Source of the DNA: Oscillospiraceae bacterium | GTDB taxonomy: Bacteria > Bacillota > Clostridia > Oscillospirales > Acutalibacteraceae | DNA length: 64,000 bases | Assembly: GCA_015065965.1 (NCBI GenBank) | Contig: SVPH01000010.1 | Span: 1 to 64,000 of the forward strand | Direction of reading: 5' to 3' | Part shown: piece by piece, positions 35,141-48,785 of the stretch | Position numbering within the stretch: position 1 is the first letter of the stretch | Layout: every line of letters begins with the position of its first letter | The notes under the pieces: model-generated | Told to the model about the DNA's origin: nothing | The model's database searches: none | What the model saw: only the letters and a program-made list of their open reading frames with translations | Program-made: the position numbers and the translations under genes

Positions 35141-35180
35141 AAAAAACCTCCGTTTGAAAAAACGGAGGTTAATTTTTTAT
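35141..35180. terminator. bidirectional terminator between glnN and the acyl-CoA synthetase gene
   Basis: A perfect 10-bp stem (35145-35154 with 35161-35170, 6-nt loop) is flanked by A6 and T6 runs, so it works on both strands. Confidence 0.92.
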
Positions 35181-36856
35181 TTATTATCAGCCTGCCTGAT
35201 TGCAACTCGTCTTACCTTGCCGCTGAATGTTTTGGGCAGTTCATCAACGAATTCAACAATTCGGGGATATTTGTAAGGTGCGGTGTTGGTTTTAACATAG
35301 TTCTGAAGTTCCTTGACAAGTTCAGGAGAACCTTCATAGCCGGGTCGGAGAACAACTGTTGCTTTAACAACAAAGCCTCTGACAGGATCGGGAACACCCG
35401 TAACTGCAACTTCGAGTACGGAAGGATGCTCAAGCATAACGCTTTCGATCTCAAAAGGTCCGATTCTGTAACCTGATGATTTAATAACATCATCGTTTCT
35501 GCCAAAGTAAACAAATCTTCCTTGTTCATCTCTGTATGCAAGGTCACCCGTGTGGAAGAAACCGCCTCTGTAGGCATGTGCTGTTTCTTCTTCGCTGAAA
35601 TTGTAACTTGCAATAACGCCGCAGGGATGTTCGGCAGGGGAGTCTGCTTTGATACAGATTTCGCCGATTGTACCGCGTTGGCAGTGGTTACCGTCTTCAT
35701 CAAGAATATGCACCCTAAGACCGGGTGCAGGGAAACCGATTGCGCCGGGTACGGGTTTTGTCCACGGATAAATCGTGCATATGCTGACAGGTGTTTCACT
35801 CATGCCGAAGCCTTCATGGATTTCAAGACCTGTTGCCTCTTTCCACTTGTTGAAAATATCAGCGTTAAGTGCTTCGCCTGCAGTGCAGCAATGTGTTATT
35901 GATGAAAGGTCATATTTGCTTACATCGTTCTGAAGCATAAGGCGGTACATTGTCGGGGGAACGCAGAATGTTGTGATTTTATATTTTTCGAGTTTGGAAA
36001 GAATATCCGCACCGTCAAATTTATCAAAATCATAAACGAAGTTTGCTGTTTCACCCATCCATTGACCGTAATACTTACCCCAAAGTGATTTTGCCCAGCC
36101 TGAGTCTGAAACGGTAAAATGAATTCCGCCGTCAACAACATGATGCCAGAAAACACCCGTCATAATGTGACCGAGAGGATATTTGAAATCATGAGCAATG
36201 ATTTTGGGATAGCCTGTTGTGCCTGATGAGAAGTTGATAATCATAGTATCATCAACAGTTGTTGCGGCATCGCCGGTAGGCCTTGTCCAATCTTCGCTTG
36301 CTTTTTCAAAGCCTTCTTCAAAATCAATCCAGCCTTCAACAGGCTTGTGCTTTGTAACAAACTTTTTCTCGATGGTTTCGTACTGATCCTTAGCCGAGTC
36401 AAAGTCCTCCGTGCATTCATCGTCACCCGTGATAACAGCATATTTGATTTTTGCTTTGTTGCAGCGGTAAACATAATCCTTGCCTTTAAGCATGTTTGAC
36501 GCAGGCACCATGATAGCGCCTATTTTGTTAAGAGCGAGGGTTATAATCCAGAAAAGATAACTTCTTTTAAGGATAAGCAGAACAGGGTCGCCTTTTTTGA
36601 CTCCTTCTGAAACAAAATAGTTTGCAGCCTTGTCTGAAAGGCGTTTCATATCGCCAAATGTAAATCTCTTCTCTTCGTTTTTGTTTGATACATAAAGAAG
36701 AGCAAGTTTATCGGGTTTTTCTGTGCCGAGAACATCAATTACATCATATGCGAAGTTGAAATCCTGCTCATATGTGATTTTAAAGTTTTCCTGGCAGTCC
36801 TTGAGAGAAATAAATGATTCTCTTGTTCTGCCGATAAATTTTTCATAAATTGCCAT
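35177..36856 (-). CDS. acetyl/acyl-CoA synthetase (ACSM-like, AMP-forming)
   Basis: A 559-residue adenylate-forming enzyme that activates a carboxylic acid with ATP to acyl-AMP and then acyl-CoA. The P-loop motif is FSSGTTGYPK near 205, the adenylate motif is YRDEQGRFVYFGRNDDVIKSSGYRIGP in the hinge region (core RNDDVIKSSGYRIGP), and the catalytic Lys near the C terminus is in TFSGKVRR. The overall pattern resembles medium-chain/branched-chain synthetases (ACSM type) rather than the long Acs. It is the last gene of the VOR operon, 33 bp after the XRE-cupin gene. I infer a short or branched-chain fatty acid as substrate. Confidence 0.88.
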   Translation of the reverse strand: MAIYEKFIGRTRESFISLKDCQENFKITYEQDFNFAYDVIDVLGTEKPDKLALLYVSNKNEEKRFTFGDMKRLSDKAANYFVSEGVKKGDPVLLILKRSYLFWIITLALNKIGAIMVPASNMLKGKDYVYRCNKAKIKYAVITGDDECTEDFDSAKDQYETIEKKFVTKHKPVEGWIDFEEGFEKASEDWTRPTGDAATTVDDTMIINFSSGTTGYPKIIAHDFKYPLGHIMTGVFWHHVVDGGIHFTVSDSGWAKSLWGKYYGQWMGETANFVYDFDKFDGADILSKLEKYKITTFCVPPTMYRLMLQNDVSKYDLSSITHCCTAGEALNADIFNKWKEATGLEIHEGFGMSETPVSICTIYPWTKPVPGAIGFPAPGLRVHILDEDGNHCQRGTIGEICIKADSPAEHPCGVIASYNFSEEETAHAYRGGFFHTGDLAYRDEQGRFVYFGRNDDVIKSSGYRIGPFEIESVMLEHPSVLEVAVTGVPDPVRGFVVKATVVLRPGYEGSPELVKELQNYVKTNTAPYKYPRIVEFVDELPKTFSGKVRRVAIRQADNK

Positions 36857-36889
36857 TATTTTGACTCCTGATTTTTTTGTTGATATCCT

Positions 36890-37438
36890 TTATTTAAGCA
36901 CAAGTGCAATAAACTGTGCCTGGGTATCGCCCACGTTTTTATGTGCGTGAGGAATAGTGGAATCAAAATATGCGCTGTCACCTTCGCTGAGTTCATAGCA
37001 GATATCACCGATGTAAAGATGAAGGTTTCCTGAAAGAACATAGTCAAATTCCTGTCCTTCGTGTTCATCCATAACAGGGGGATTGCCCGAAGGGTCAATA
37101 GTAACAAGGAAAGGCTCAGCCTTTTTGTTTCTGAAAGTGTATGCAAGGTGTGAGAAGTTATATCCGGGGTTACGGTTTATGGTGTAACCTTTGCCTTTTT
37201 TAACCACCGTGCATGATGAAAGGCGAGGGGATTCACCGCTGATGATATCAAGAATATCAACGCCGAGAATAAGCGCAATGTTATTGAGCGTGCTGATTGC
37301 AAAATCGTATTCGCCGTGTTCAAAAGCATTGTAGTTTTCTTCTGAAATTTCAAGTTTTTCCGCCATATCTGTGGCAGAAAGACCGCAGGTTTCACGCAGG
37401 GAAGCAACTCGCAGGCCAATTTCTTTTAATTCAAGCAT
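36890..37438 (-). CDS. XRE-cupin transcriptional regulator
   Basis: A 182-residue regulator: an N-terminal Cro/C1-type helix-turn-helix (about 8-65, with LSATDMAEKLEISEENYNAF) and a C-terminal cupin domain (about 105-180, with EGQEFDYVLSGN and DSTIPHAHKN). Such proteins bind small ligands in the cupin and control nearby metabolic genes. It lies inside the operon between the VOR gamma-subunit gene and an acyl-CoA synthetase gene, which is typical for this kind of regulator beside acyl-CoA synthetases. I infer local autoregulation; the ligand might be an acyl-CoA or free acid. Confidence 0.88.
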   Translation of the reverse strand: MLELKEIGLRVASLRETCGLSATDMAEKLEISEENYNAFEHGEYDFAISTLNNIALILGVDILDIISGESPRLSSCTVVKKGKGYTINRNPGYNFSHLAYTFRNKKAEPFLVTIDPSGNPPVMDEHEGQEFDYVLSGNLHLYIGDICYELSEGDSAYFDSTIPHAHKNVGDTQAQFIALVLK

Positions 37439-37463
37439 GTGGGTTTCTCCTATCCGTTAGCAA

Positions 37464-37994
37464 TTAATAGTTATATCCGAGTTCAACAGCCTTGATGTTG
37501 AGTTCGATAAGATTCTGTTTCTTTGCAGGAACAAGTTTTTTCATTGTTGTTTCAACATTTTCGTAGGGCATAACGCCTGCTTTTGCAATAACGTGACCAA
37601 TCATAATCATGTTTGCAAGACCGGGCAGATTATGATCCGATGCAAGTTTTGTTGCGGGGATGTAATAAACATCAACATCATCTCTTTCAACCTTGCGGTC
37701 AATGAGTGAACTGTCAACAAAAATCTTTGCGCCGGGAACTGCTGAATTCTCAAACTTATCAAGTGAGGGCAGGTTCATGGCAACGAGAACGTTGGGATTT
37801 GAAACGATGGGTGAACCGATTTTTGTATCGCTGAGAATAATTGAGCAGTTACATGTGCCGCCTCTCATCTCAGGACCGTATGAAGGAAGCCAACTTACCT
37901 CACGGTTTTCAAGAAGTCCGTCATAAGCAAGGAATTTGCCTGAGAAAAGGATGCCCTGGCCGCCAAAACCGGCAAGAAGTATTTCATGTGTCAT
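37464..37994 (-). CDS. 2-oxoacid:ferredoxin oxidoreductase, gamma subunit
   Basis: The 176-residue gamma subunit (pyruvate ferredoxin/flavodoxin oxidoreductase catalytic-domain family) of a four-subunit VOR/KOR enzyme. Its start MTHEILLAGFGGQGILFSGK is the hallmark of the family, with GFGGQG contacting the CoA or cofactor. RGGTCNCSIILSD near 45-57 is also conserved. The gene is 2 bp after the beta gene, completing the set alpha, beta, gamma, delta. The complex oxidises a 2-oxoacid with CoA to acyl-CoA, CO2 and reduced ferredoxin, reversibly. Confidence 0.93.
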   Translation of the reverse strand: MTHEILLAGFGGQGILFSGKFLAYDGLLENREVSWLPSYGPEMRGGTCNCSIILSDTKIGSPIVSNPNVLVAMNLPSLDKFENSAVPGAKIFVDSSLIDRKVERDDVDVYYIPATKLASDHNLPGLANMIMIGHVIAKAGVMPYENVETTMKKLVPAKKQNLIELNIKAVELGYNY

Positions 37995-37996
37995 GA

Positions 37997-38749
37997 TTAT
38001 TCAGCCTCCTTTTCAGCAGTCTTATCCTTATAAACACCGAGAGGATAATAAGGAATCATGTTTTCCTCAAGCCATTCAAGAGCCTTGTCGGGCTTAAGAC
38101 CCCAGTTTGTGGGGCAGGTTGAAAGAACTTCAACAAGTGAGAAGCCCTTGCCTTCAAGTTGGTTCTGGAAAGCCTTTTTGATAGCCTTCTTAGCGTTCTT
38201 TACATTTTTAACATTGTTTACAGCAACTCTTTCAAGATATGTTGCACCGTCAACGTTTGAGAGAAGTTCGCATACTTTAACGGGCAGACCAACCTGCTCG
38301 GGGTTTCTGCCGTAAGGTGATGTCTGTGTAATCTGACCGGGCAGAGTTGTGGGAGCCATCTGACCGCCGGTCATGCCGTAGATTGCATTGTTAACAAAGA
38401 TTATTGTTATGTTTTCGCCTCTTGCAGCGGAATGAACTGTTTCGGCAGTACCTATAGCAGCAAGGTCACCGTCACCCTGATATGTGAAAACTATGTTATC
38501 GGGGAGCGAACGCTTAACGCCTGTTGCAACTGCGGGTGCTCTGCCGTGAGCAGCCTCAATCATATCGCAGTTAAAGTAGTTGTATGCAAAAACTGAGCAG
38601 CCAACGGGTGCAACACCAACAGTTTTGCCTTCAATACCGAGTTCGTCAATAACTTCGGCAACAAGGCGGTGAATAATACCGTGTGTGCAGCCGGGGCAAT
38701 AATGAAGGGGTACATCGGCAAGTGCCTTGGGTTTTTCAAAAACTATCAT
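37997..38749 (-). CDS. 2-oxoacid:ferredoxin oxidoreductase, beta subunit (TPP-binding)
   Basis: The 250-residue thiamine-diphosphate subunit. The cluster-binding cysteines are in HYCPGCTHG (Cys18, Cys21) with another in PVGCS. The TPP/Mg motif starts at YQGDGD and ends at FVNNAIYGMTGGQ. Its start overlaps the alpha stop by one base (TAATG), so the two are translated together. The family resembles 2-oxoisovalerate/2-oxoglutarate oxidoreductases; the exact 2-oxoacid must be deduced from context, which favours branched-chain compounds because ilvE is in the operon. Confidence 0.93.
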   Translation of the reverse strand: MIVFEKPKALADVPLHYCPGCTHGIIHRLVAEVIDELGIEGKTVGVAPVGCSVFAYNYFNCDMIEAAHGRAPAVATGVKRSLPDNIVFTYQGDGDLAAIGTAETVHSAARGENITIIFVNNAIYGMTGGQMAPTTLPGQITQTSPYGRNPEQVGLPVKVCELLSNVDGATYLERVAVNNVKNVKNAKKAIKKAFQNQLEGKGFSLVEVLSTCPTNWGLKPDKALEWLEENMIPYYPLGVYKDKTAEKEAE

Positions 38750-39819
38750 TATTTGTCACCTCCGACGGAATTTGCTTTGTTGATTGAATTAAGAACATCT
38801 TCTGTAGTGGGAATCATGCCGCCAACGCGGTTACAGAGAAGAACGGGTTTCTTGCAGCGTGTTGCAAGTTCAATATCTTCAATCATCTGACCCATTGAGA
38901 GTTCAACGCTGATGAATGCCTTAACCTTATCTGCTGCAGCATTAAGAACAGCCTTGGGGAAGGGCCAGAGAGTTATGGGACGAATCATGCCGACTTTGAT
39001 GCCCTGTGCACGAGCCTTGTCAATTGCGTTCTGTGAAACTCTTGCAGCAACGCCGTAAGCAACAATGCAGATTTCAGCATCGTCCATAAGATATTCGTCA
39101 TACATAACTTCGTTTGCTTCAATCTGAGCATAACGCTCGTAACGTTCAAAGTTATATTTTTCAAGTTCTTCGGGCTGAATGAAAAGTGAGTTAACAACAT
39201 TGTGCTCGCGTTCGCATTTTGTTCCGCATGCAGCCCATGAAGATTTGTCATATTCCTTAACTTCGCCCATTTCAAGAGAAACAGGTTCCATCATCTGACC
39301 CATTGTGCCGTCAGAAAGGAGCATTGCGGGCATTCTGTATTTATCGGCAAGGTCAAATCCCTTGAATGTAAGGTCAACCATTTCCTGAACTGAAGCGGGA
39401 GCAAGAACGATGAGTTTAAAGTCACCGTGACCTGCACTCTTTGTTGCCTGGAAGTAGTCTGACTGTGAGGGTTGGATACCGCCGAGACCGGGACCACCTC
39501 TCTGAACATTTATAATAAGAGCAGGGAGATCGGAACCTGCAAGATATGAAATGCCTTCGCTCTTAAGTGCGATTCCGGGGCTTGAACTTGATGTCATTGC
39601 TCTTTTGCCTGCTGCAGCCGCACCGTAAATCATATTGATAGCAGCAACTTCGCTTTCAGCCTGAAGGAATGTTCCGCCGATAACGGGCATTCTTTTTGCC
39701 ATGTAAGCAGCAATTTCTGTCTGCGGTGTTATGGGGTAACCGAAGTAATGGCGGCAGCCTGCCATGATAGCAGCCTCAGCAAGTGCTTCGTTACCTTTCA
39801 TCAAAACTTTATCAGCCAT
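38749..39819 (-). CDS. vorB: 3-methyl-2-oxobutanoate (2-oxoisovalerate):ferredoxin oxidoreductase, alpha subunit VorB
   Basis: The 356-residue alpha subunit. It begins LMKGNEALAEAAIMAGCRHYFGYPITPQTEI, a pattern matching VorB-type subunits (core FGYPITPQTEI), and continues with FLQAESEVAAINMIYGAAAAG, SSSSPGIALKSEGISYLAG and QRGGPGLG, all binding the TPP/CoA interface. It is 18 bp after the ferredoxin gene. KorA of 2-oxoglutarate enzymes is related, so substrate preference for 2-oxoisovalerate is inferred from pattern and from the neighbouring ilvE. Confidence 0.92.
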   Translation of the reverse strand: MADKVLMKGNEALAEAAIMAGCRHYFGYPITPQTEIAAYMAKRMPVIGGTFLQAESEVAAINMIYGAAAAGKRAMTSSSSPGIALKSEGISYLAGSDLPALIINVQRGGPGLGGIQPSQSDYFQATKSAGHGDFKLIVLAPASVQEMVDLTFKGFDLADKYRMPAMLLSDGTMGQMMEPVSLEMGEVKEYDKSSWAACGTKCEREHNVVNSLFIQPEELEKYNFERYERYAQIEANEVMYDEYLMDDAEICIVAYGVAARVSQNAIDKARAQGIKVGMIRPITLWPFPKAVLNAAADKVKAFISVELSMGQMIEDIELATRCKKPVLLCNRVGGMIPTTEDVLNSINKANSVGGDK

Positions 39820-39837
39820 TTTTCTTCTCCTTTCTTC

Positions 39838-40044
39838 TTACTTCTCAACGGTAATAACGCAGTCCGGGCACATGGTAGCGCAGAAAGCGCAGCCTATACA
39901 TGCGGACTGGTCTGTGATGCCTGCGGGATGATAACCCTTGGCGTTGATTTCATCTTTGAGCAATGCCACGATTTTTTTCGGGCATGCACCGACACAAAGA
40001 CCGCAGCCCTTGCAAAGGTCGGTGTTAAAGGTTACTTTTGCCAT
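39838..40044 (-). CDS. 2 x [4Fe-4S] ferredoxin, delta subunit of the VOR complex
   Basis: A 68-residue bacterial-type ferredoxin. Two CxxCxxCxxxCP motifs are visible: CKGCGLCVGACP (starting near residue 10) and CIGCAFCATMCP (near 49). It passes electrons from the oxidoreductase core to soluble ferredoxin. I chose ATG 40044 because GGAGGAAG is just upstream. An upstream GTG at 40068 would place the start inside the preceding P-loop ATPase gene, which already overlaps by 13 bp. It is the first subunit gene of the VOR set. Confidence 0.93.
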   Translation of the reverse strand: MAKVTFNTDLCKGCGLCVGACPKKIVALLKDEINAKGYHPAGITDQSACIGCAFCATMCPDCVITVEK

Positions 40045-40727
40045 AAATCTTCCTCCTGTTTTGCCCACGATTGCTTAACATAAAGCCTTATCGCGGTGCA
40101 GTTAACAACTTTTTCTTTAAGTTTATCGTATAAATTTTCTTTTACAGTAGTCATTCTTATCGGCAGACCGCTTGCTTGTGATATTTCATCTGCATATGCA
40201 ACGGATGCAAGAACAGTTGCTTCATCGGTTTCATCTCCGAGGTTTGAGTTATTGATAATGCCGGTGAACTTCATTTGGCAAGCAGTTTCAATCTCGTGCA
40301 TAACTGCAAGAGTTGACTTGCAGTCAGGTGTGAGCGGTCTGTATTTGTTGATTACAAGAAGCATTTCATAATCGTTTTCGCTTAGGATTGCAGGAGCGTA
40401 TCTGCCCATTGCAAGAGCGCCTCTGTCATCACCGCCGACATCAATAACGGCTCTCAGAGATTTGTCATCGATTATTGAATAGGCTTCTGACGGCATGGCA
40501 GGCACATCAACATTGGAGTTGGCATATTCGGAGGAAATAAGATGGATTCCTCTTGCCTCAAGTTGTTTTTCGCTGTCTTTTGAGCGAAAATAAGGATTAA
40601 CAATGTCAAGGTCGGCAATAACTACCTTTTCATTTTCCTCTTTAAGCCAAAGTGCATAGTTAACTGCAATGTTGGTTTTGCCGCTGCCGTAATGACCTGC
40701 AAAAAGTGTTATTCTTTTGCTGTCCAT
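40032..40727 (-). CDS. P-loop ATPase, MinD/CobQ-like, VOR-associated
   Basis: A 231-residue P-loop ATPase of the SIMIBI (MinD/ParA/CobQ) type. Walker A is GHYGSGKTN near 11-19. A deviant Walker A signature Lys is not obvious. Walker B-like ADLDIVNPYF is near 38-47, and VIDVGGDDRGA near 95. The role is unknown; relatives handle metal clusters or cofactor insertion, so assembly of the adjacent FeS-rich oxidoreductase is a guess. It starts 1 bp after the ilvE stop and overlaps the ferredoxin gene at its end, so it is firmly in the operon. Confidence 0.78.
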   Translation of the reverse strand: MDSKRITLFAGHYGSGKTNIAVNYALWLKEENEKVVIADLDIVNPYFRSKDSEKQLEARGIHLISSEYANSNVDVPAMPSEAYSIIDDKSLRAVIDVGGDDRGALAMGRYAPAILSENDYEMLLVINKYRPLTPDCKSTLAVMHEIETACQMKFTGIINNSNLGDETDEATVLASVAYADEISQASGLPIRMTTVKENLYDKLKEKVVNCTAIRLYVKQSWAKQEEDLWQK

Positions 40728-40728
40728 A

Positions 40729-41793
40729 TTAAAGAACTGTTACCCAGCCGAACTTGTCTTCGCAAGTGCCGCCCTGAATGCCTGTTACGGTGTCATAGAG
40801 TTTCTGGCTGATCTCGCCGATGTTACCGCCGTTGATTGTCATAACATCGTCCTTATAGCGAAGTTTGCCGACGGGAGAGATAACTGCTGCTGTACCTGTT
40901 CCGAAACATTCTTCAAGTGTTCCGTTCTTCTGAGCCTCAAGAAGTTCATCAACTGAAATCCTTCTTTCTTCAACAGGAAGACCCCAACTCTTGCAAAGTT
41001 CGATAACTGAGTTTCTTGTGATGCCGGGCAGAATGCTGCCGTTAAGCATGGGAGTTACGATTGTGCCGTTGATTTTAAAGAAGATGTTCATTGCACCGAC
41101 TTCTTCAATATACTTTCTCTCTACGCCGTCAAGCCAGAGAACCTGTGAATAACCGTCGTCATGTGCCTTAACTTGTGCTGCAAGGCTGGCGGCATAGTTA
41201 CCGCCTGTTTTTGCAAAGCCCATGCCGCCCTTAACTGCTCTTACATAGTCATCTTCAATCCAGATGCCAACGGGTGCAAGGCCGCTTGAATAGTAAGCAC
41301 CTGAGGGGGAGAGGATAACGATGAAGAGATAGGTTTTTGAAGGAGCAACGCCGAGAAAATCATCGGTTGCGATGATGAAGGGACGAATGTAAAGCGATGT
41401 GCCGGGAGCGGAGGGAATCCAGTCACGGTCAACATTAACAGTCTCGCTTACTGCCTGAACAAAATCCTCAACGGGGAGTTCGGGAATGCAAAGACGCTTG
41501 TTTGTGTCGTTTGTTCTTTTTGCGTTCATTTCGGGGCGGAAAAGGCGAACTTCTCCGTCTGCTCCTTTGTAGGCTTTAAGTCCTTCAAACATTTCCTGGC
41601 CATAGTGGAAAACCATGCATGCAGGGGAGAGGGAAAGATTGCCGTAAGGAACTATACGGGGATCGTGCCAACCCTGACCTTCTGTGTAGTTCATGATAAA
41701 CATGTGGTCGGTGAAAATTTTGCCGAAGCCGAGGTTGTTTTCATCAGGCTTCTGCTTAGGAGCGGTTGTTCTCTCAATTTTGATTTTTAACAT
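40729..41793 (-). CDS. ilvE: branched-chain amino acid aminotransferase
   Basis: IlvE interconverts Val, Leu, Ile and their 2-oxoacids with glutamate/2-oxoglutarate, using PLP. The 354 residues resemble the class IV fold of the longer, eukaryote-like BCAT group. The PLP Lys is in GFAKTGGNYAAS, and FRPEMNAKR and GTAAVISPVG are signatures. The start has AAGGGTG upstream, 26 bp after the fusion gene. Its place upstream of the VOR genes ties the operon to branched-chain amino acids. It could run in either direction. Confidence 0.95.
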   Translation of the reverse strand: MLKIKIERTTAPKQKPDENNLGFGKIFTDHMFIMNYTEGQGWHDPRIVPYGNLSLSPACMVFHYGQEMFEGLKAYKGADGEVRLFRPEMNAKRTNDTNKRLCIPELPVEDFVQAVSETVNVDRDWIPSAPGTSLYIRPFIIATDDFLGVAPSKTYLFIVILSPSGAYYSSGLAPVGIWIEDDYVRAVKGGMGFAKTGGNYAASLAAQVKAHDDGYSQVLWLDGVERKYIEEVGAMNIFFKINGTIVTPMLNGSILPGITRNSVIELCKSWGLPVEERRISVDELLEAQKNGTLEECFGTGTAAVISPVGKLRYKDDVMTINGGNIGEISQKLYDTVTGIQGGTCEDKFGWVTVL

Positions 41794-41819
41794 TTTATAA
41801 CACCCTTTCGGTTAATTTA

Positions 41820-44327
41820 TTATTTTAAAAGTCCCAATTTTTTGGCAAAGTCTTCTCTCATTTTATATTTGAGAATTTTGCCTGCCGCATTTTTGGGGAA
41901 ATCCTCAACAAATTCAATATAGCGGGGAACTTTGTGCCTTGCCATATGTGATTTGATGTAATCCTTCATTTCTTCTTCGGTCATTGATTTGCCTTCTTTA
42001 AGAATGACGCAAGCCATAATTTCCTCGCCGTATCTCTTATCGGGCACACCGATAACCTGAACATCCTGAACATAATCATGAGTGAAAATGAACTCTTCAA
42101 TTTCACGGGGATAGATGTTTTCGCCGCCGCGAATAATCATATCCTTGAGTCTGCCTGTAATCAGGTAGTATCCGTCGGGTCGTCTGCAAGCAATGTCGCC
42201 GCTGTGAAGCCAGCCGTCTTTGTCTATTGCTGCTTCTGTTGCTTTGGGCATTTTATAGTAGCCCTTCATGATGTTGTAGCCTCTTGCAACGAACTCGCCG
42301 TTTTCTCCGTCGGGAAGGTCTTCGCCCGTTTCGGGGTCGATAATCTTGCATTCAACATTCGGGAATGCACTGCCGACGGTTTCTGTTCTGTCTTCAAGCG
42401 ATTCATTTACTTCACCCATTGTGCAGCCGGGTGATGCTTCCGTTTCGCCGTAAACACTTAATATTTCAGTCATGTTCATTTCCGCTGCAGCGCGTTTCAT
42501 GAGATCGGGCGGGCAGTTTGCGCCAGCCATAATGCCTGTTCTCATATATGAGAAATCGGTTTTTGCAAAATCTTCATGCTGGAACATTGCAATGAACATC
42601 GTAGGAACACCGTTGAAACAAGTGATATGCTCCTGATTAATACATGCAAGCGATGATTTTGCCGAAAAATAAGGCAAGGGACAAAGCGTGCCGCCGTGTG
42701 TCATCATTGATGTCATTGAAAGAACCATGCCGAAGCAGTGGAACATAGGAACCTGAATCATCATGCGGTCAGCAGTGGACATATCCATTCTGTCGCCGAT
42801 GGTTTTACCGTTGTTGACAATGTTGTAGTGAGTGAGCATAACGCCTTTTGGGAAGCCTGTTGTGCCCGAAGTATACTGCATGTTTGCAACATCGTGGCAA
42901 TCAACAGCCGCTGCTCTGCGGTAAACCTCTTCGATGGGAACTCTTACCGCCATATCCATTGCTTCTTCCCATGTAAGGCAGCCTTTTTGGCGGTAGCCTA
43001 CCGTGATAACGTTACGCAGGAAGGGGAGTTTACGGCAGTGGAGCGGTTTGCCGGGAACTGCAACTTCAAGTTCGGGGCAAAGAGCAGCAATTGATTCTGC
43101 ATAGTTTGAGTCAAGGCAGGATTCAATTGTGATAAGTGTATGAGTATCGGACTGCCTGAGCAGATACTCGATTTCGTGGATTTTGTATGCGGTGTTGACA
43201 GTAACAAGGACTGCACCGATTTTTGTTGTTGCCCAGAAAGTGATAAACCATTGAGGCAGATTTGTGAGCCATACAGCAACTTTATCGCCGGGTTTTACTC
43301 CAAGCGCAATCAGTGCTCTTGCACAGTTGTCAACATCATCACGGAACTGTGAGTAAGTTCTTGTGTAATCAAGAGTAGTATATTTATAAGCAATCTGGTC
43401 AGGAAATTTTTCAACCATTGTGTCAAGAACCTGTGAAAAAGTCTTGTTAATAAGTTTGTATTTTTCCCAAACGAATTTGCCGCTGCCGCTTCTGTTTGTG
43501 AGAAGAAGTTCTTCACTCTTCTTTTTGTTATCGTAAACAGTAATTGCGTTAACGAAGTGGGGGAATACGATATCGGCAATTCCGAAATCTTCCATCTTCT
43601 CGGGCTGACATTCATATGAAAGGAAACCGTCATAGTTGACTGAATCAAGTGCACGAAGCATTGTGCCGATAGGAAGATTTCCTTCACCGATAAGGCGGTA
43701 TTTCATTTCACCATCTTCAATGATTGAGTCTTTAACATGAACGTGCTTTATGTATGCGCCGAGATTTGTGATTGTTGTATCGGGTTCTTCTCCGAAATCT
43801 CTGTAAGGATGGTTGATATCCCAAAGGGCTGCAAGATAGTCGCAAGCAAAAACATTGAGAAGGTCGCGCAACCTTGATGTATCGGCATAAAGACCTACCG
43901 TTTCAACGAGAAGAGCAACATTGTCCTGCTCTGCTTTTTCAACAAGCCTGCCGATGAGCGAAATAACAGCAGCATCTTCTGCTTTTCTTTCTGCGCCTGT
44001 TGCATATGCGTGAATTCTGACATAAGGACATCTGATTCTTGCTGCAATTTCAATTGCTGTTGCAATTTCTTCAAATCCTTCATCTGCAGTTTTTTCGTCA
44101 GCGATGTTGCAGTATGTGTCAATGCAGGGAATTGAAAGTGAATTTTCAAGCAGTTTGTGAACGGTTGCCGATGAGTTTGCTTTGTTGAACGGTGCATCTG
44201 CGCCTGTGAATCTGTCGTCTGTTATGTTATGAATTTCAATACCGCTGAAACCGAGGTCGTTTGCTGTGCTTACAAATTCAGCCCATGAAAGTTCTTGCCA
44301 TCCGTTTGTTGAGAATGAGAGTTTCAT
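41820..44327 (-). CDS. fusion: sugar-isomerase-type TIM barrel + acyl-CoA synthetase
   Basis: An 835-residue protein with two domains. Residues 1 to about 265 form a xylose-isomerase-like (IolE/hydroxypyruvate-isomerase-type) TIM barrel with a plausible metal site: Glu142 (LLVETVG), Asp170/His173 (LWDINHP), His197 (KHVHVKD) and Glu239 (SYECQPE). Residues about 285-835 are an AMP-forming acyl-CoA synthetase: TSGTTGFPKG at 486-495, a second motif GRLKDMIIRGGENIYP, and Lys near 822 in AAGKILKYK. The frame is continuous, with no sign of a sequencing junction. Its ATG overlaps the LeuA-like stop by 4 bp (ATGA). The substrate is inferred to be a short or branched-chain acid; the barrel's role is unknown. 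Confidence 0.85.
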   Translation of the reverse strand: MKLSFSTNGWQELSWAEFVSTANDLGFSGIEIHNITDDRFTGADAPFNKANSSATVHKLLENSLSIPCIDTYCNIADEKTADEGFEEIATAIEIAARIRCPYVRIHAYATGAERKAEDAAVISLIGRLVEKAEQDNVALLVETVGLYADTSRLRDLLNVFACDYLAALWDINHPYRDFGEEPDTTITNLGAYIKHVHVKDSIIEDGEMKYRLIGEGNLPIGTMLRALDSVNYDGFLSYECQPEKMEDFGIADIVFPHFVNAITVYDNKKKSEELLLTNRSGSGKFVWEKYKLINKTFSQVLDTMVEKFPDQIAYKYTTLDYTRTYSQFRDDVDNCARALIALGVKPGDKVAVWLTNLPQWFITFWATTKIGAVLVTVNTAYKIHEIEYLLRQSDTHTLITIESCLDSNYAESIAALCPELEVAVPGKPLHCRKLPFLRNVITVGYRQKGCLTWEEAMDMAVRVPIEEVYRRAAAVDCHDVANMQYTSGTTGFPKGVMLTHYNIVNNGKTIGDRMDMSTADRMMIQVPMFHCFGMVLSMTSMMTHGGTLCPLPYFSAKSSLACINQEHITCFNGVPTMFIAMFQHEDFAKTDFSYMRTGIMAGANCPPDLMKRAAAEMNMTEILSVYGETEASPGCTMGEVNESLEDRTETVGSAFPNVECKIIDPETGEDLPDGENGEFVARGYNIMKGYYKMPKATEAAIDKDGWLHSGDIACRRPDGYYLITGRLKDMIIRGGENIYPREIEEFIFTHDYVQDVQVIGVPDKRYGEEIMACVILKEGKSMTEEEMKDYIKSHMARHKVPRYIEFVEDFPKNAAGKILKYKMREDFAKKLGLLK

Positions 44328-45736
44328 ACATTACCCTCCTCATAAACGATTTTGTTAAGAGCATTAACATAAGCAATAATGCTTGCTCCGATAATATCGG
44401 TTGAAATGCCTTTACCGGAGTAGAGTTTACCGTTTGAGCGGAGTTTGACAAGAGCCTCACCCATGGCTTCGCGTCCTTCGGTAACTGACTGAATCTGGAA
44501 ATCGTCAAGTTCATAGTGATGGCCGATAATCTGCTCAATTGTGCGCAGTGAAGCGTCAATGGGTCCGTCGCCCATGCCGACTGCTTTAAGCGTTCTGCTG
44601 CCCTTTTCAAGAACAATGTTTGCTGTTGATGAAATAAGGTTGCCTGAATTTATAACATAACTTTGAACTCTGTATGTAGGGGGAACCTGATGAGCAACCG
44701 TTGCAATGATAGCATCAAGTTCTTTTGCACCAACCTGTTTTTTGCCCGAAACATTCTTAAATGCATCGAAAACTTTTGAGGTATCATCTTCAGTAAGTTC
44801 ATAACCGAGAGAAACAATTGCTTTGCTGACTTTTGCTATATCCGCAGTATCATCAAGAAGAACGGTGCTTGCTGCGGCAGATGATGCACTGCTGAGAGAA
44901 GAACCGCTGCGGTTTTCACTTGTCATACGGAGAATTTGATTTGCAGAATGGTTGATAGCCATTGAGTTAACGCCGTAACTTACATCAAGGGTATGACCTT
45001 TAACCTGAAGTGCTTTCATAACATGCTCAAGGTTAGGAAGTGCTTGGCTGCCGATGCATGTTTTAATCTGAGCAGCACCTGCGCTGATGCATGAGAATAC
45101 GCATGCGTTTGCCATGTCAAGAGCATCGCTGCATTCTGCACAAACAGTTACGTCTTTTGTAGCGGATACAGTTTCGTACATTTCATCAATAAGTGCAGCA
45201 AACTCCGAGGGAAGGAGCGCACCTGCAGTATCGCACAGAGTAATTATTTTTGCGCCGTTTTCAATAGCAGTCTTAACTGCTTCAAAAAGATAAGCCTTGT
45301 CCGCTCTTGTTGCATCAACTGCAGCAAACTCAACATCATTGCAGATTGAAGCACAGTGAGCGGTGAGTGAAGCGATAAGTTCAATCATCTGAGCGGGCTT
45401 CTTATGGTAAAAATATTCCATCTGAACGGCGGATACGGGAAGTGAAACAAGGAGCCTCGGCTTCTTTGTACCTGAAATTGATTTCATTGCTCTGTCTGCT
45501 TCTTCAACCGAACTGCCGACGGGGCAGGATAGTGTGCTGTTCTGTAGGAGGGGACTTATAGTGCGCAATACGAGGGTATCAATTTTTTCATCGGTAATAG
45601 GTGCGGCTTCGATAACATCAATGCAAAGTTTATCAAGAAGTTTTGCAATTTCAATTTTCTCCTTGAAACTGAGGGCGATGTCACCCCTGTGTGCGCACTC
45701 TCTGAGTGTTGCGTCTGCGATTGTAATTTTTTTCAT
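44324..45736 (-). CDS. LeuA-like protein with LeuA regulatory domain, catalytic motifs lost
   Basis: A 470-residue homologue of 2-isopropylmalate synthase (HMGL-like barrel about 1-280; LeuA allosteric/dimer domain about 355-470). The barrel is degenerate: TLRE (Arg12-Glu13) replaces TLRD, CAECSDALDMA (199-209) stands where LeuA has HCHNDLGMA, so both metal-ligand histidines are gone, and GSQALPN replaces GERAGN. The leucine-binding C-terminal domain looks intact (GDGPIDASLRTIEQIIG, GISTDIIGASIIAYVNA). I infer a pseudoenzyme or altered-substrate protein, perhaps a leucine sensor. ATG 45736 has AAAGGAGAG upstream; an in-frame start at 45763 lies inside a leader hairpin. It is the first gene of the ten-gene operon. 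Confidence 0.85.
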   Translation of the reverse strand: MKKITIADATLRECAHRGDIALSFKEKIEIAKLLDKLCIDVIEAAPITDEKIDTLVLRTISPLLQNSTLSCPVGSSVEEADRAMKSISGTKKPRLLVSLPVSAVQMEYFYHKKPAQMIELIASLTAHCASICNDVEFAAVDATRADKAYLFEAVKTAIENGAKIITLCDTAGALLPSEFAALIDEMYETVSATKDVTVCAECSDALDMANACVFSCISAGAAQIKTCIGSQALPNLEHVMKALQVKGHTLDVSYGVNSMAINHSANQILRMTSENRSGSSLSSASSAAASTVLLDDTADIAKVSKAIVSLGYELTEDDTSKVFDAFKNVSGKKQVGAKELDAIIATVAHQVPPTYRVQSYVINSGNLISSTANIVLEKGSRTLKAVGMGDGPIDASLRTIEQIIGHHYELDDFQIQSVTEGREAMGEALVKLRSNGKLYSGKGISTDIIGASIIAYVNALNKIVYEEGNV

Positions 45737-45758
45737 GCTGAATCTCTCCTTTTTGAAC

Positions 45759-45783
45759 AGCACTTTTCCTAACGGAATGTGCT
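45759..45783 (-). promoter_or_regulatory. leader hairpin of the LeuA-like operon
   Basis: AGCAC/GTGCT (45759-45763 with 45779-45783) and TTCC/GGAA (45766-45769 with 45774-45777) form an interrupted stem in the leader, about 20 nt upstream of the start. It could modulate translation. No leader peptide rich in Leu codons and no T-box motif were seen. Confidence 0.35.
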
Positions 45784-45827
45784 CGCTTTAACTAAAATAA
45801 CACTTATGCACTATAAGATTTCTTAAT

Positions 45828-45856
45828 ATTATATATAAATTTAATATTAAAGTCAA
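45828..45856 (-). promoter_or_regulatory. sigma-A promoter for the LeuA-like/VOR operon
   Basis: On the minus strand TTGACT (45856-45851) and TATAAT (45833-45828) are 17 bp apart. It is the only strong promoter I see for the ten genes down to 35177. Confidence 0.85.
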
Positions 45857-46859: not shown

Positions 46860-48785
46860 TTATATGTTATACTCTATATCATCCTTATATGATTTCCATC
46901 CCATTCTGCCGTACCATATAACAAATTTTCCGAAATCGCACCAGTTATTCATAACATCGCTGTCACGCATAATCAGAGTGTGTTTTGATGCTTTAAGCGG
47001 TTGATATTCGTTTACATAAACACTTTGAAGGTAATCATGAATATCATGCTTTAGTTTGATTTCACAGGCTTCTTCGTTCGGAACACGAATAATATTTTTC
47101 TGATATGCAAGAAGGTCATCAAATATGTCTTCAGGAATATTATATTCTTTAAGATGCGGAAGTATTTCTTCGTAGAATTTGTCTTTGTCAGCGAGAAAGT
47201 TCAAAACGATATATTCATGGTCATCCCATACTACATCGCCGCTTGGTTCAAAAATCAGTTTCCTGTTGTTTTTGCCTGCTGAAATTTCATCGGCATGCTG
47301 CTTTATTTCAGCATACATTTTTGAAACAAAAAGGTCAGGATTTTTTTCAAAATAACTGATTATGCCGTCATAGAACTTTTCATAGGGAATGTTTTTTTCG
47401 TAGTGAAGCCATATTGCAAATGCGCGCAGCAGACCGTTGCCATGAAAAGCCTTTGTAAAATAATAAAAAACGGTTGACCTTATCCACATTTCACGGCTCA
47501 TGGAATTTGTTTCAACAATTATATCGTTGTACTCGGGCACCGCAAAAGCATCCGTTGCAAAATGAGGACGTAATATTTCGGAACGAACAGTTTTTATTCC
47601 GAAGCGTTCAACAAAATCACTCTGACCCATAATTGAGTTGGGCAGAAGAATGCAACTGTATACTTCAAAAACATAGTGCTGACCGATTTCAAAAAGTTTG
47701 CCGATACCGCTTATAAAACTTTCGTATGTTTCGCCGGGCAGACCGAGTATGAGTTCGGAATAAGCCTTCATGCCGTTTTGGTTGTATTTTGTCAAAAGGT
47801 TTCGGAAGAAATCAAGCGACATGTTTTTACGTCCGATATTGTGCAGGACCTCAGGAGAAAGGCTCTGGAAAGAAAGTGTTGCACCTATTCTGTCAAACTC
47901 GCATTCTTTGAATTTGCTGACAATTGTAAATACATTTTCAAAATTTGTTTTTGAATAGTTCATCCTCATTCGCTCAGGATATCCGGTAGATTCTTTGGCA
48001 TTTATAAGAGCATCAGCAATTTCAAGATCACGGTCAAAAAGGCCGAAATTTGCATCAGCACCCCAGACAAAAGCGATTTTATGCTCCGACATCCATTTGA
48101 TTTCGCCGAGGATTCTTTCCATGGGGAAAAGGCGTGTTTTGGATTTGAGCAGACCCCAGTCACAGTATGCGCATTTATGAGGGCATCCTCTGCTTGTTTC
48201 GAGAATGGCATTGAATGTTATTTCAGGGTGATTTGCAACTATTTCATCAAACCAACCGTCAAGATACGGTGACGGATATTCCGCAATATCTCCGGGTACA
48301 GTCCTTTCTGTTCGGATTATTTTATCTCCGTCACGGTATGAAAGGTTGCTGACTGAGGATAAATCTCCGTTGAGCGCTGCAATAAGCAGGTTGCGGAAAG
48401 TTTCTTCGCCTTCACCGTGGCACAGAACATCAATATATGAATAATCATGCAAAAAATCGGCGTTTTCATCAGGAATGTTATGACCGCCGAAAACAATCAG
48501 GCAGTCGTTCCATTTTTCTTTGATTTTTTGCGCAAGGAGTTTGTTGTATTCCGTGTTCCAACAATAGTTCGAGAAACCGACAACGCAAGGTGACTCCATT
48601 CTCCCTAATACTTCGTCAATATCTTCACGCAAAAATATAAATTCTTTAAATTCATAGTTTTCCGCAACTGTTTTATCACGGAAAGCGTTTGCTGCAAGCA
48701 CACCTGCGGTATATGGCAGGTAGGCTTGTTCAGCACCGGTGCAGGCAGACACATCAACCTGCACAAGATAAACATTTTTCTTCAT
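46860..48785 (-). CDS. B12-binding-domain radical SAM protein (paralogue 1)
   Basis: A 641-residue member of the class B-like cobalamin-dependent radical SAM family. An N-terminal Rossmann-like domain (about 1-135, with VVGFSNYCWN and VFGGHNIP) resembles a B12-binding domain, though without the classical DxHxxG. The radical SAM domain follows: GCPHKCAYCDWG (Cys about 201, 205, 208) and GATLSFQSLSPEVLHNIGRKNM, then SELILGLPGETYESF. The C-terminal about 200 residues are family-specific. Such proteins usually methylate unreactive carbons or rearrange metabolites; I cannot name the substrate. It shares its layout with the next gene upstream (same operon order) and is separated from it by a MITE-like element. 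Confidence 0.85.
   Translation of the reverse strand: MKKNVYLVQVDVSACTGAEQAYLPYTAGVLAANAFRDKTVAENYEFKEFIFLREDIDEVLGRMESPCVVGFSNYCWNTEYNKLLAQKIKEKWNDCLIVFGGHNIPDENADFLHDYSYIDVLCHGEGEETFRNLLIAALNGDLSSVSNLSYRDGDKIIRTERTVPGDIAEYPSPYLDGWFDEIVANHPEITFNAILETSRGCPHKCAYCDWGLLKSKTRLFPMERILGEIKWMSEHKIAFVWGADANFGLFDRDLEIADALINAKESTGYPERMRMNYSKTNFENVFTIVSKFKECEFDRIGATLSFQSLSPEVLHNIGRKNMSLDFFRNLLTKYNQNGMKAYSELILGLPGETYESFISGIGKLFEIGQHYVFEVYSCILLPNSIMGQSDFVERFGIKTVRSEILRPHFATDAFAVPEYNDIIVETNSMSREMWIRSTVFYYFTKAFHGNGLLRAFAIWLHYEKNIPYEKFYDGIISYFEKNPDLFVSKMYAEIKQHADEISAGKNNRKLIFEPSGDVVWDDHEYIVLNFLADKDKFYEEILPHLKEYNIPEDIFDDLLAYQKNIIRVPNEEACEIKLKHDIHDYLQSVYVNEYQPLKASKHTLIMRDSDVMNNWCDFGKFVIWYGRMGWKSYKDDIEYNI

Follow-up and report, generated by a model that had tools for sequence, protein, structure and literature searches.

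What is the function of a run of ten tightly packed genes that joins a 2-oxoacid:ferredoxin oxidoreductase (VOR) to a branched-chain aminotransferase, two acyl-coenzyme A (acyl-CoA) synthetases and a relative of 2-isopropylmalate synthase (LeuA), and in which direction would its pathway run? The run occupies positions 35177-45763 of the minus strand of a 64,000 nucleotide (nt) stretch of DNA from an Oscillospiraceae bacterium (GenBank assembly GCA_015065965.1, contig SVPH01000010.1, positions 1 to 64,000; called the window below). We consider it very likely that this operon serves the synthesis of branched-chain amino acids from branched-chain fatty acids. Judged by homology, an acid-activating enzyme, a 2-oxoacid:ferredoxin oxidoreductase and a branched-chain aminotransferase are all encoded together, and the route that the first-pass annotation of this DNA had proposed (acid to acyl-CoA, CO2 addition by VOR, then transamination) appears, from sequence comparison, to fit all of the findings below.

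Such a conversion has a long physiological history. Rumen bacteria carboxylate isovalerate, isobutyrate and 2-methylbutyrate and so make Leu, Val and Ile (Allison and colleagues, 1962-1971, as given in the accessible part of PMC7356843), and the same source places the establishment of this acid-to-amino-acid conversion in rumen culture work decades ago, from the 1960s onward. The accessible part of PMC10658910 describes the same carboxylation route for rumen methanogens. The predicted function of the operon is like this route in substrates, logic and habitat; the difference is that these sources, in the parts available, deal with physiology and labelling, whereas the present locus offers a gene set, its wiring by T-box leaders, an apparent LeuA-like pseudoenzyme and two fusion proteins. 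The open-access literature that we searched (subscription papers were outside the search) describes the physiology and names no gene cluster for the carboxylation route.

The ten genes are, in order of transcription, leuX, TIM-ACS, ilvE, a P-loop ATPase gene, vorD, vorB, vorA, vorC, an XRE-cupin gene and acs2, and by their open reading frame coordinates neighbours overlap or lie no more than 33 nt apart. The first, leuX (44324..45736), encodes a LeuA-like protein with HMGL-like and LeuA_dimer domains that is without the LeuA metal ligands and has the leucine-regulatory LeuA_dimer domain intact. It overlaps by 4 nt TIM-ACS (41820..44327), whose product is a xylose-isomerase-like TIM barrel fused to an AMP-forming acyl-CoA synthetase (ACS; domain matches AP_endonuc_2 and AMP-binding) and is our proposed isovalerate activator. 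A 26 nt gap separates this gene from ilvE (40729..41793), which encodes a branched-chain amino acid aminotransferase (NF009897, 506 bits against a cut-off of 307) and is followed after 1 nt by the gene for a CbiA/ParA-like P-loop ATPase (40032..40727). The latter overlaps vorD by 13 nt and adjoins it in every VOR block seen, in the window and in relatives; its product belongs to no clear family, and the search for solved relatives gave no useful match (the best was 3dm9, E 0.044). The oxidoreductase genes are vorD (39838..40044), for a ferredoxin-like delta subunit with two 4Fe-4S domains, then after 18 nt vorB (38749..39819), for the alpha subunit (NF005507, 546 bits against a cut-off of 399), which overlaps by 1 nt vorA (37997..38749), for the thiamine pyrophosphate-binding beta subunit, and 2 nt further on vorC (37464..37994), for the gamma subunit with a POR gamma domain. 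VorA and VorC fall below every NCBIfam cut-off, and the VOR assignment is made from the VorB score together with the four-subunit layout, in which delta, beta and gamma partners are all present. After 25 nt comes the gene for a regulator with XRE and cupin domains (36890..37438), which in the T-box units of relatives is fused to a synthetase, and after a further 33 nt acs2 (35177..36856), for an AMP-binding acyl-CoA synthetase near Macs of Methanosarcina acetivorans (3ETC) that we propose, by elimination, as the isobutyrate activator. Domain searches agree with the gene identities of the first-pass annotation, including leuX itself; as the start of leuX, the GTG at 45763 is less likely than the ATG at 45736, which is preceded by AGGAGAG.

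Is this arrangement peculiar to the window? Gene order was compared among 116 loci, of which 36 came from related genomes around leuX or LeuA matches and 80 were the best of at least 559 candidates encoding relatives. The identical ten-gene order is present in 20 of them, or 15 after removal of loci with an identical leuX end, and its recurrence in 15 other distinct loci indicates that the order is not due to chance and that the ten-gene operon was correctly recognized. Nine of the 15 are close relatives, their leuX sharing about 78-90% identity with that of the window; the other six (L092, L101, L130, L131, L134 and L136) stand further off, at about 49-53%. The TIM-ACS fusion is the next gene after leuX, on the same strand, in 112 of 114 matches, and the remaining two (L067 and L133) are at contig ends. 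Elsewhere the parts are rearranged into a leuX-TIM-ACS pair, one or two XRE-cupin-ACS units and a VOR-IlvE-P-loop block, which are usually neighbours. Pairs of leuX and TIM-ACS are also found, with no VOR block nearby, on contigs labelled Salinivirgaceae or Bacteroidetes (L123, L124, L125 and L127), for which horizontal transfer or mislabelled bins are possible explanations.

T-box leaders sense uncharged tRNA, and the genes behind them are turned on when the amino acid is short. Of 34 regions upstream of leuX, 22 have an Rfam T-box immediately in front of the gene (9 of 20 in one set and 13 of 14 in another); 19 of these 22 are at or above the gathering threshold, and the three below it have E values of 4e-18 or better. 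The Rfam search found no T-box before leuX in ten regions of the window clade and G033, nor in G036 and G016. All 15 XRE-cupin-ACS units searched, from nine genomes, have a T-box in front of them (two at or above gathering, 13 below it with E values of 7.5e-13 or better). Which amino acids do these leaders specify? Counting distinct readable leaders in the 116 loci, the specifier before leuX and TIM-ACS is Leu in 66 of 66 (51 CUC, 15 CUG); before XRE-cupin-ACS units with no VOR seen downstream it is Ile in 28 of 30, always AUC, with two Val; and before XRE-cupin-ACS units that head VOR or IlvE it is Val in 26 of 29 (19 GUA, 7 GUC), with three Ile. The third specifier base changes within one amino acid (CUC/CUG, GUA/GUC) while the flanks stay constant, which supports the register in which the specifiers were read, and the assignments to leucine, isoleucine and valine come from these specifiers and not from enzyme annotation. 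Product-amino-acid (anabolic) control is thus seen in the relatives, and also in the genome from which the window comes, where an XRE-cupin-ACS fusion on contig C10 has a T-box above gathering with the specifier AUC (Ile). Because the same genes in relatives stand behind Leu, Ile and Val T-boxes, synthesis is favoured over breakdown; the evidence for this direction comes from many independent leaders of relatives and from one leader of the window's own genome. Two named isolates, Bittarella massiliensis (L139) and Neobittarella massiliensis (L153), have a CUG T-box before leuX-TIM-ACS, the latter with two tandem cores.

The specifiers were taken from Rfam alignments where these were shown and by script for the rest, and five rows were re-read by eye: these XRE-cupin rows, GGC or GGT by script, are GUC (four) and GUA (one) by eye, because of an altered closing GAG or a slip of the frame. 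T-boxes were located with a core pattern that misses variants; it found 146 cores in the 116 loci, among them 13 rows untied to a leuX or XRE-cupin start (2 CUC, 1 UUC, 1 AUC and 9 unread), and the specifier is unread in seven further rows, four before leuX matches (one of them a true LeuA) and three before XRE-cupin genes. The leaders are like those that control Firmicutes ilv-leu operons in belonging to the same leader family and in having a Leu specifier, but here they stand before acyl-CoA synthetase units. T-box specifiers have been used for gene annotation by Wels et al. 2008 (PMC2494555), in whose main text, the part available, the words CoA, ferredoxin and fatty acid are absent.

TIM-ACS (95 stop-free sequences with more than 820 amino acids (aa) matched) falls in a broad fatty acid/aryl-CoA ligase group. 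By profile the nearest solved relatives of its TIM domain are Art22 and AsbF, and the positions that we take to be the metal ligands of that family vary (E142 in 68, D170 in 74, H195 in 79, H197 in 77 and E239 in 77 of the 95). Among solved structures Methanosarcina Macs (3ETC) is the closest to acs2 (624 bits); it takes a branched acid, its preferred acyl substrate being 2-methylbutyrate (according to the accessible part of PMC10455477); Macs is archaeal, whereas the bacterial relatives of acs2 in T-box units are fused to the XRE-cupin regulator. XRE-cupin and synthetase form one continuous frame in 66 of 66 T-box-type units and are separate genes in 20 of 20 ten-gene loci. The 772-aa fusion on contig C10 (L220:2939-5257) is a second such synthetase of the window's own genome, 50% identical to acs2. 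In a tree of 83 synthetases (stop-free, more than 480 aa matched, at least 40% identity) the 19 sequences of the ten-gene type form a clade of their own (support 1.0), 26 of 29 Ile-labelled sequences fall in one clade (0.857) and 27 of 28 Val-labelled sequences in another (0.933), while L055, the C10 fusion, L112 and L152 lie outside those clades. The node that parts the Ile and Val groups is weak (below), and with the ten-gene clade standing apart the tree gives acs2 no amino acid assignment. By elimination, and by its placement with VOR and IlvE, acs2 is probably the Val unit; the genome would then have one unit for each amino acid, TIM-ACS for Leu, C10 for Ile and acs2 for Val.

If branched-chain amino acids are made in this way, what has become of the classical pathway? 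The window's own genome (2.33 Mb in 56 contigs, 86% complete) has on contig C31 ilvD, ilvC, two acetolactate synthase subunits, leuB, leuD, leuC, leuA and ilvA-like genes in one run (ilvD is cut by the contig end; names other than leuA, ilvC and ilvD were read from the translations), and this cluster has a CUC T-box. Two tandem T-box matches lie before it (L198:1728-2182), the second of them weak (57 bits, below gathering). Since the leu-ilv cluster is present, the idea that the operon replaces the leu and ilv genes in this genome was rejected. The wider picture is different. In the genus, the window's genome included, 31 of 37 genomes have leuX, and ilvC and ilvD both occur in one and the same set of six; 26 genomes have leuX without ilvC or ilvD and five have neither. 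Each of the 13 genus members that are at least 90% complete has leuX (that of G001 is a fragment at the end of a contig); ilvC, ilvD, true LeuC and true LeuA occur in just one of them, G011. Among 295 genomes of the order, ilvC is present in 8 of 66 with leuX and in 135 of 229 without it (Fisher p 3e-12, not corrected for relatedness), and the difference persists among genomes at least 90% complete (5 of 38 versus 125 of 187). A close VorB is encoded in 59 of the 66 leuX genomes and in 119 of the 229 without leuX. The expected coupling of a conserved gene order with loss of leu and ilv genes is therefore found at genus and order level and fails in the genome that supplied the window.

A number of observations weigh against the reading of this operon as a biosynthetic one and belong beside it. 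No T-box (RF00230) was found at the window operon at the gathering threshold, nor at E 0.1 in L164, and the window's own genome retains the leuACDB-ilvBNCD cluster, so the carboxylation route is not its only source; its organism may use the route merely as a supplement to the classical pathway. Both Val-specifier units with no VOR seen, one of which (L062) is at a contig end, and the three VOR-heading units with AUC (L119, L121 and L138, each showing a single XRE-cupin-ACS unit) depart from the specifier pattern. Scattering of the set in relatives had been named beforehand as evidence against a dedicated module, and in many relatives it is indeed split into separate units, yet these are usually neighbours; in some loci leuX-TIM-ACS has no VOR nearby, and in L148:9992-17418 leuX and TIM-ACS are followed directly by a 1161-aa frame that resembles pyruvate:flavodoxin/ferredoxin oxidoreductase in place of VOR (named from its translation). 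In the order, 94 of the 229 leuX-less genomes also have no ilvC, and seven of the 66 leuX genomes have no close VorB; five of these seven are less than 90% complete, and the two above 90%, G096 and G281, both have ilvC. Finally, acs2 misses the cut-off of its nearest NCBIfam model, MbcS (425 versus 850 bits), and the tree node between the Ile and Val synthetases has a support of 0.349.

LeuX has been described so far only as LeuA-like. Is it an ordinary LeuA? We compared 112 LeuX proteins (stop-free, more than 455 aa, more than 36% identity to that of the window; seven are identical to others) with ten true LeuA proteins of the order at the residues that serve in LeuA as metal ligands and catalytic Arg. 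None of the 112 has the Asp ligand or the first His, and one (L045) has the second His, so no LeuX has two metal ligands, whereas Asp and the HxH are kept in 10 of 10 LeuA controls; 55 of the 112 retain the catalytic Arg, and 44 have Lys in its place. Both LeuX and LeuA have an HMGL-like barrel and a LeuA_dimer domain (PF08502, 104 bits in LeuX against a cut-off of 24.9), but LeuX reaches at best 283 bits with an NCBIfam LeuA model whose cut-off is 532. It was rejected as an ordinary LeuA for its lost metal ligands, which agrees with its earlier description as degenerate, and a true LeuA is encoded elsewhere in the same genome. The regulatory domain is the best conserved part of LeuX, with a mean column identity of 0.77 against 0.58 for the barrel; the ten LeuA controls, a small and more diverse set, show the reverse (0.52 and 0.61). 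LeuX is thus probably a leucine-sensing pseudoenzyme, a reading suggested by comparison of its sequences.

These data bear on three other explanations. Two concern the operon as a whole. It might be oxidative, with Leu, Val and Ile transaminated and then oxidised by VOR to acyl-CoA to gain reduced ferredoxin and energy, the synthetases running backwards; VOR and IlvE are reversible, many anaerobes are known to ferment branched-chain amino acids, and the first-pass annotation had called this direction equally possible. That parity no longer stands, since units of synthetase and VOR or IlvE in relatives are behind T-boxes with Leu, Ile and Val specifiers that turn on at amino acid shortage; in addition AMP-forming synthetases favour acid activation and most leuX genomes are without ilvC, and we reject the catabolic direction as very improbable. 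Alternatively, the operon might provide primers for membrane lipids in the form of branched acyl-CoA, made from scavenged acids or amino acids. MbcS, the nearest model of acs2 despite the low score, activates branched acids, and rumen bacteria do put branched acids into lipids, but control by T-boxes for Leu, Ile and Val, together with the LeuA_dimer domain, indicates amino acids, and domain and family searches found no fatty-acid genes within the ten-gene operon; such a role seems unlikely to us, though the operon may have both uses.

The third explanation concerns LeuX, which might be no sensor but a protein that, by means of a new active site, catalyses some step of leucine synthesis together with TIM-ACS. 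Some polar residues peculiar to its barrel are invariant (for example D7, K112, D140, R143 and D168), and it is tied to TIM-ACS, itself fused to an enzyme-like barrel. The loss of the LeuA ligands, the keeping of the catalytic Arg in only about half of the proteins, and a regulatory domain more conserved than the barrel, opposite to LeuA, tell against it, and we regard it as somewhat doubtful. The Leu T-box, the constant partner TIM-ACS and the conserved regulatory domain together lead us to read LeuX instead as a leucine sensor that would tune the isovalerate synthetase. More broadly, LeuX may be a LeuA that gave up catalysis and whose allosteric domain now controls the adjacent isovaleryl-CoA synthetase. 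Together with three synthetase units that have a Leu, an Ile and a Val T-box respectively, it would make up a complete, so far unnamed, isoacid-assimilation system; we see about as much for this broader proposal as against it.

For the synthesis of branched-chain amino acids from fatty acids, the reading that we prefer, the steps would be as follows: TIM-ACS would activate isovalerate and acs2, most likely, isobutyrate, each to its acyl-CoA by an AMP-forming reaction, and the XRE-cupin-ACS fusion elsewhere in the genome would activate 2-methylbutyrate. VorDBAC would then add CO2 using reduced ferredoxin, and IlvE would transaminate the resulting 2-oxoacids to Leu, Val and Ile. Uncharged tRNA would, in relatives, turn on the matching synthetase unit through the T-box leader of that unit. 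LeuX, with its predicted leucine-binding domain kept, would probably report the leucine level to TIM-ACS. In the window clade leuX has no T-box in front of it; there the XRE-cupin regulator has probably taken over, by way of a palindrome at the promoter.

That promoter, TTGACT-17-TATAAT (45828..45856, minus strand, before leuX), matches 11 of 12 consensus bases, and it is the single promoter that had been predicted for the operon. A scan of the DNA gave 25 sites of such quality where 20.2 were expected, a total near chance, and the leuX promoter stands out because of its strength and its conservation in the alignment. Directly 3' of its -10 element is the palindrome CTTAT-AGTGC-ATAAG (45803..45817, minus strand), a candidate operator. 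Promoter and adjoining palindrome are conserved in the window clade, where the palindrome is exact in seven of ten aligned upstream regions and altered in L171, L172 and L173, and the palindrome 17-mer has a single match in the window's own genome when up to two mismatches are allowed. From this we infer that it may be the operator of the operon's own XRE-cupin regulator. An operator shared with XRE-cupin genes elsewhere was rejected, as the palindrome is present in 0 of 66 regions before the XRE-cupin genes of other loci. At the other end of the operon is a two-way terminator-like hairpin (35145..35170).

Adjoining the operon are divergent NUDIX-like and ArsC/Spx-like genes, and beyond them, at 46860-48785 of the window, is a 641-aa frame that resembles a B12-binding radical SAM protein (named from its sequence only).

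What would such a system mean for these bacteria? For rumen bacteria, branched-chain volatile fatty acids serve as growth factors, and they are also given as feed supplements. The T-box specifiers, by assigning each synthetase to one amino acid, make the trait readable from genomes and open to test gene by gene. The absence of ilv and leu genes from a genome, moreover, does not necessarily mean amino acid auxotrophy. If our reading of LeuX is true, the fatty-acid route has inherited a feedback sensor from the classical leucine pathway, and a biosynthetic enzyme would have turned into a regulator of the pathway that replaces its own.

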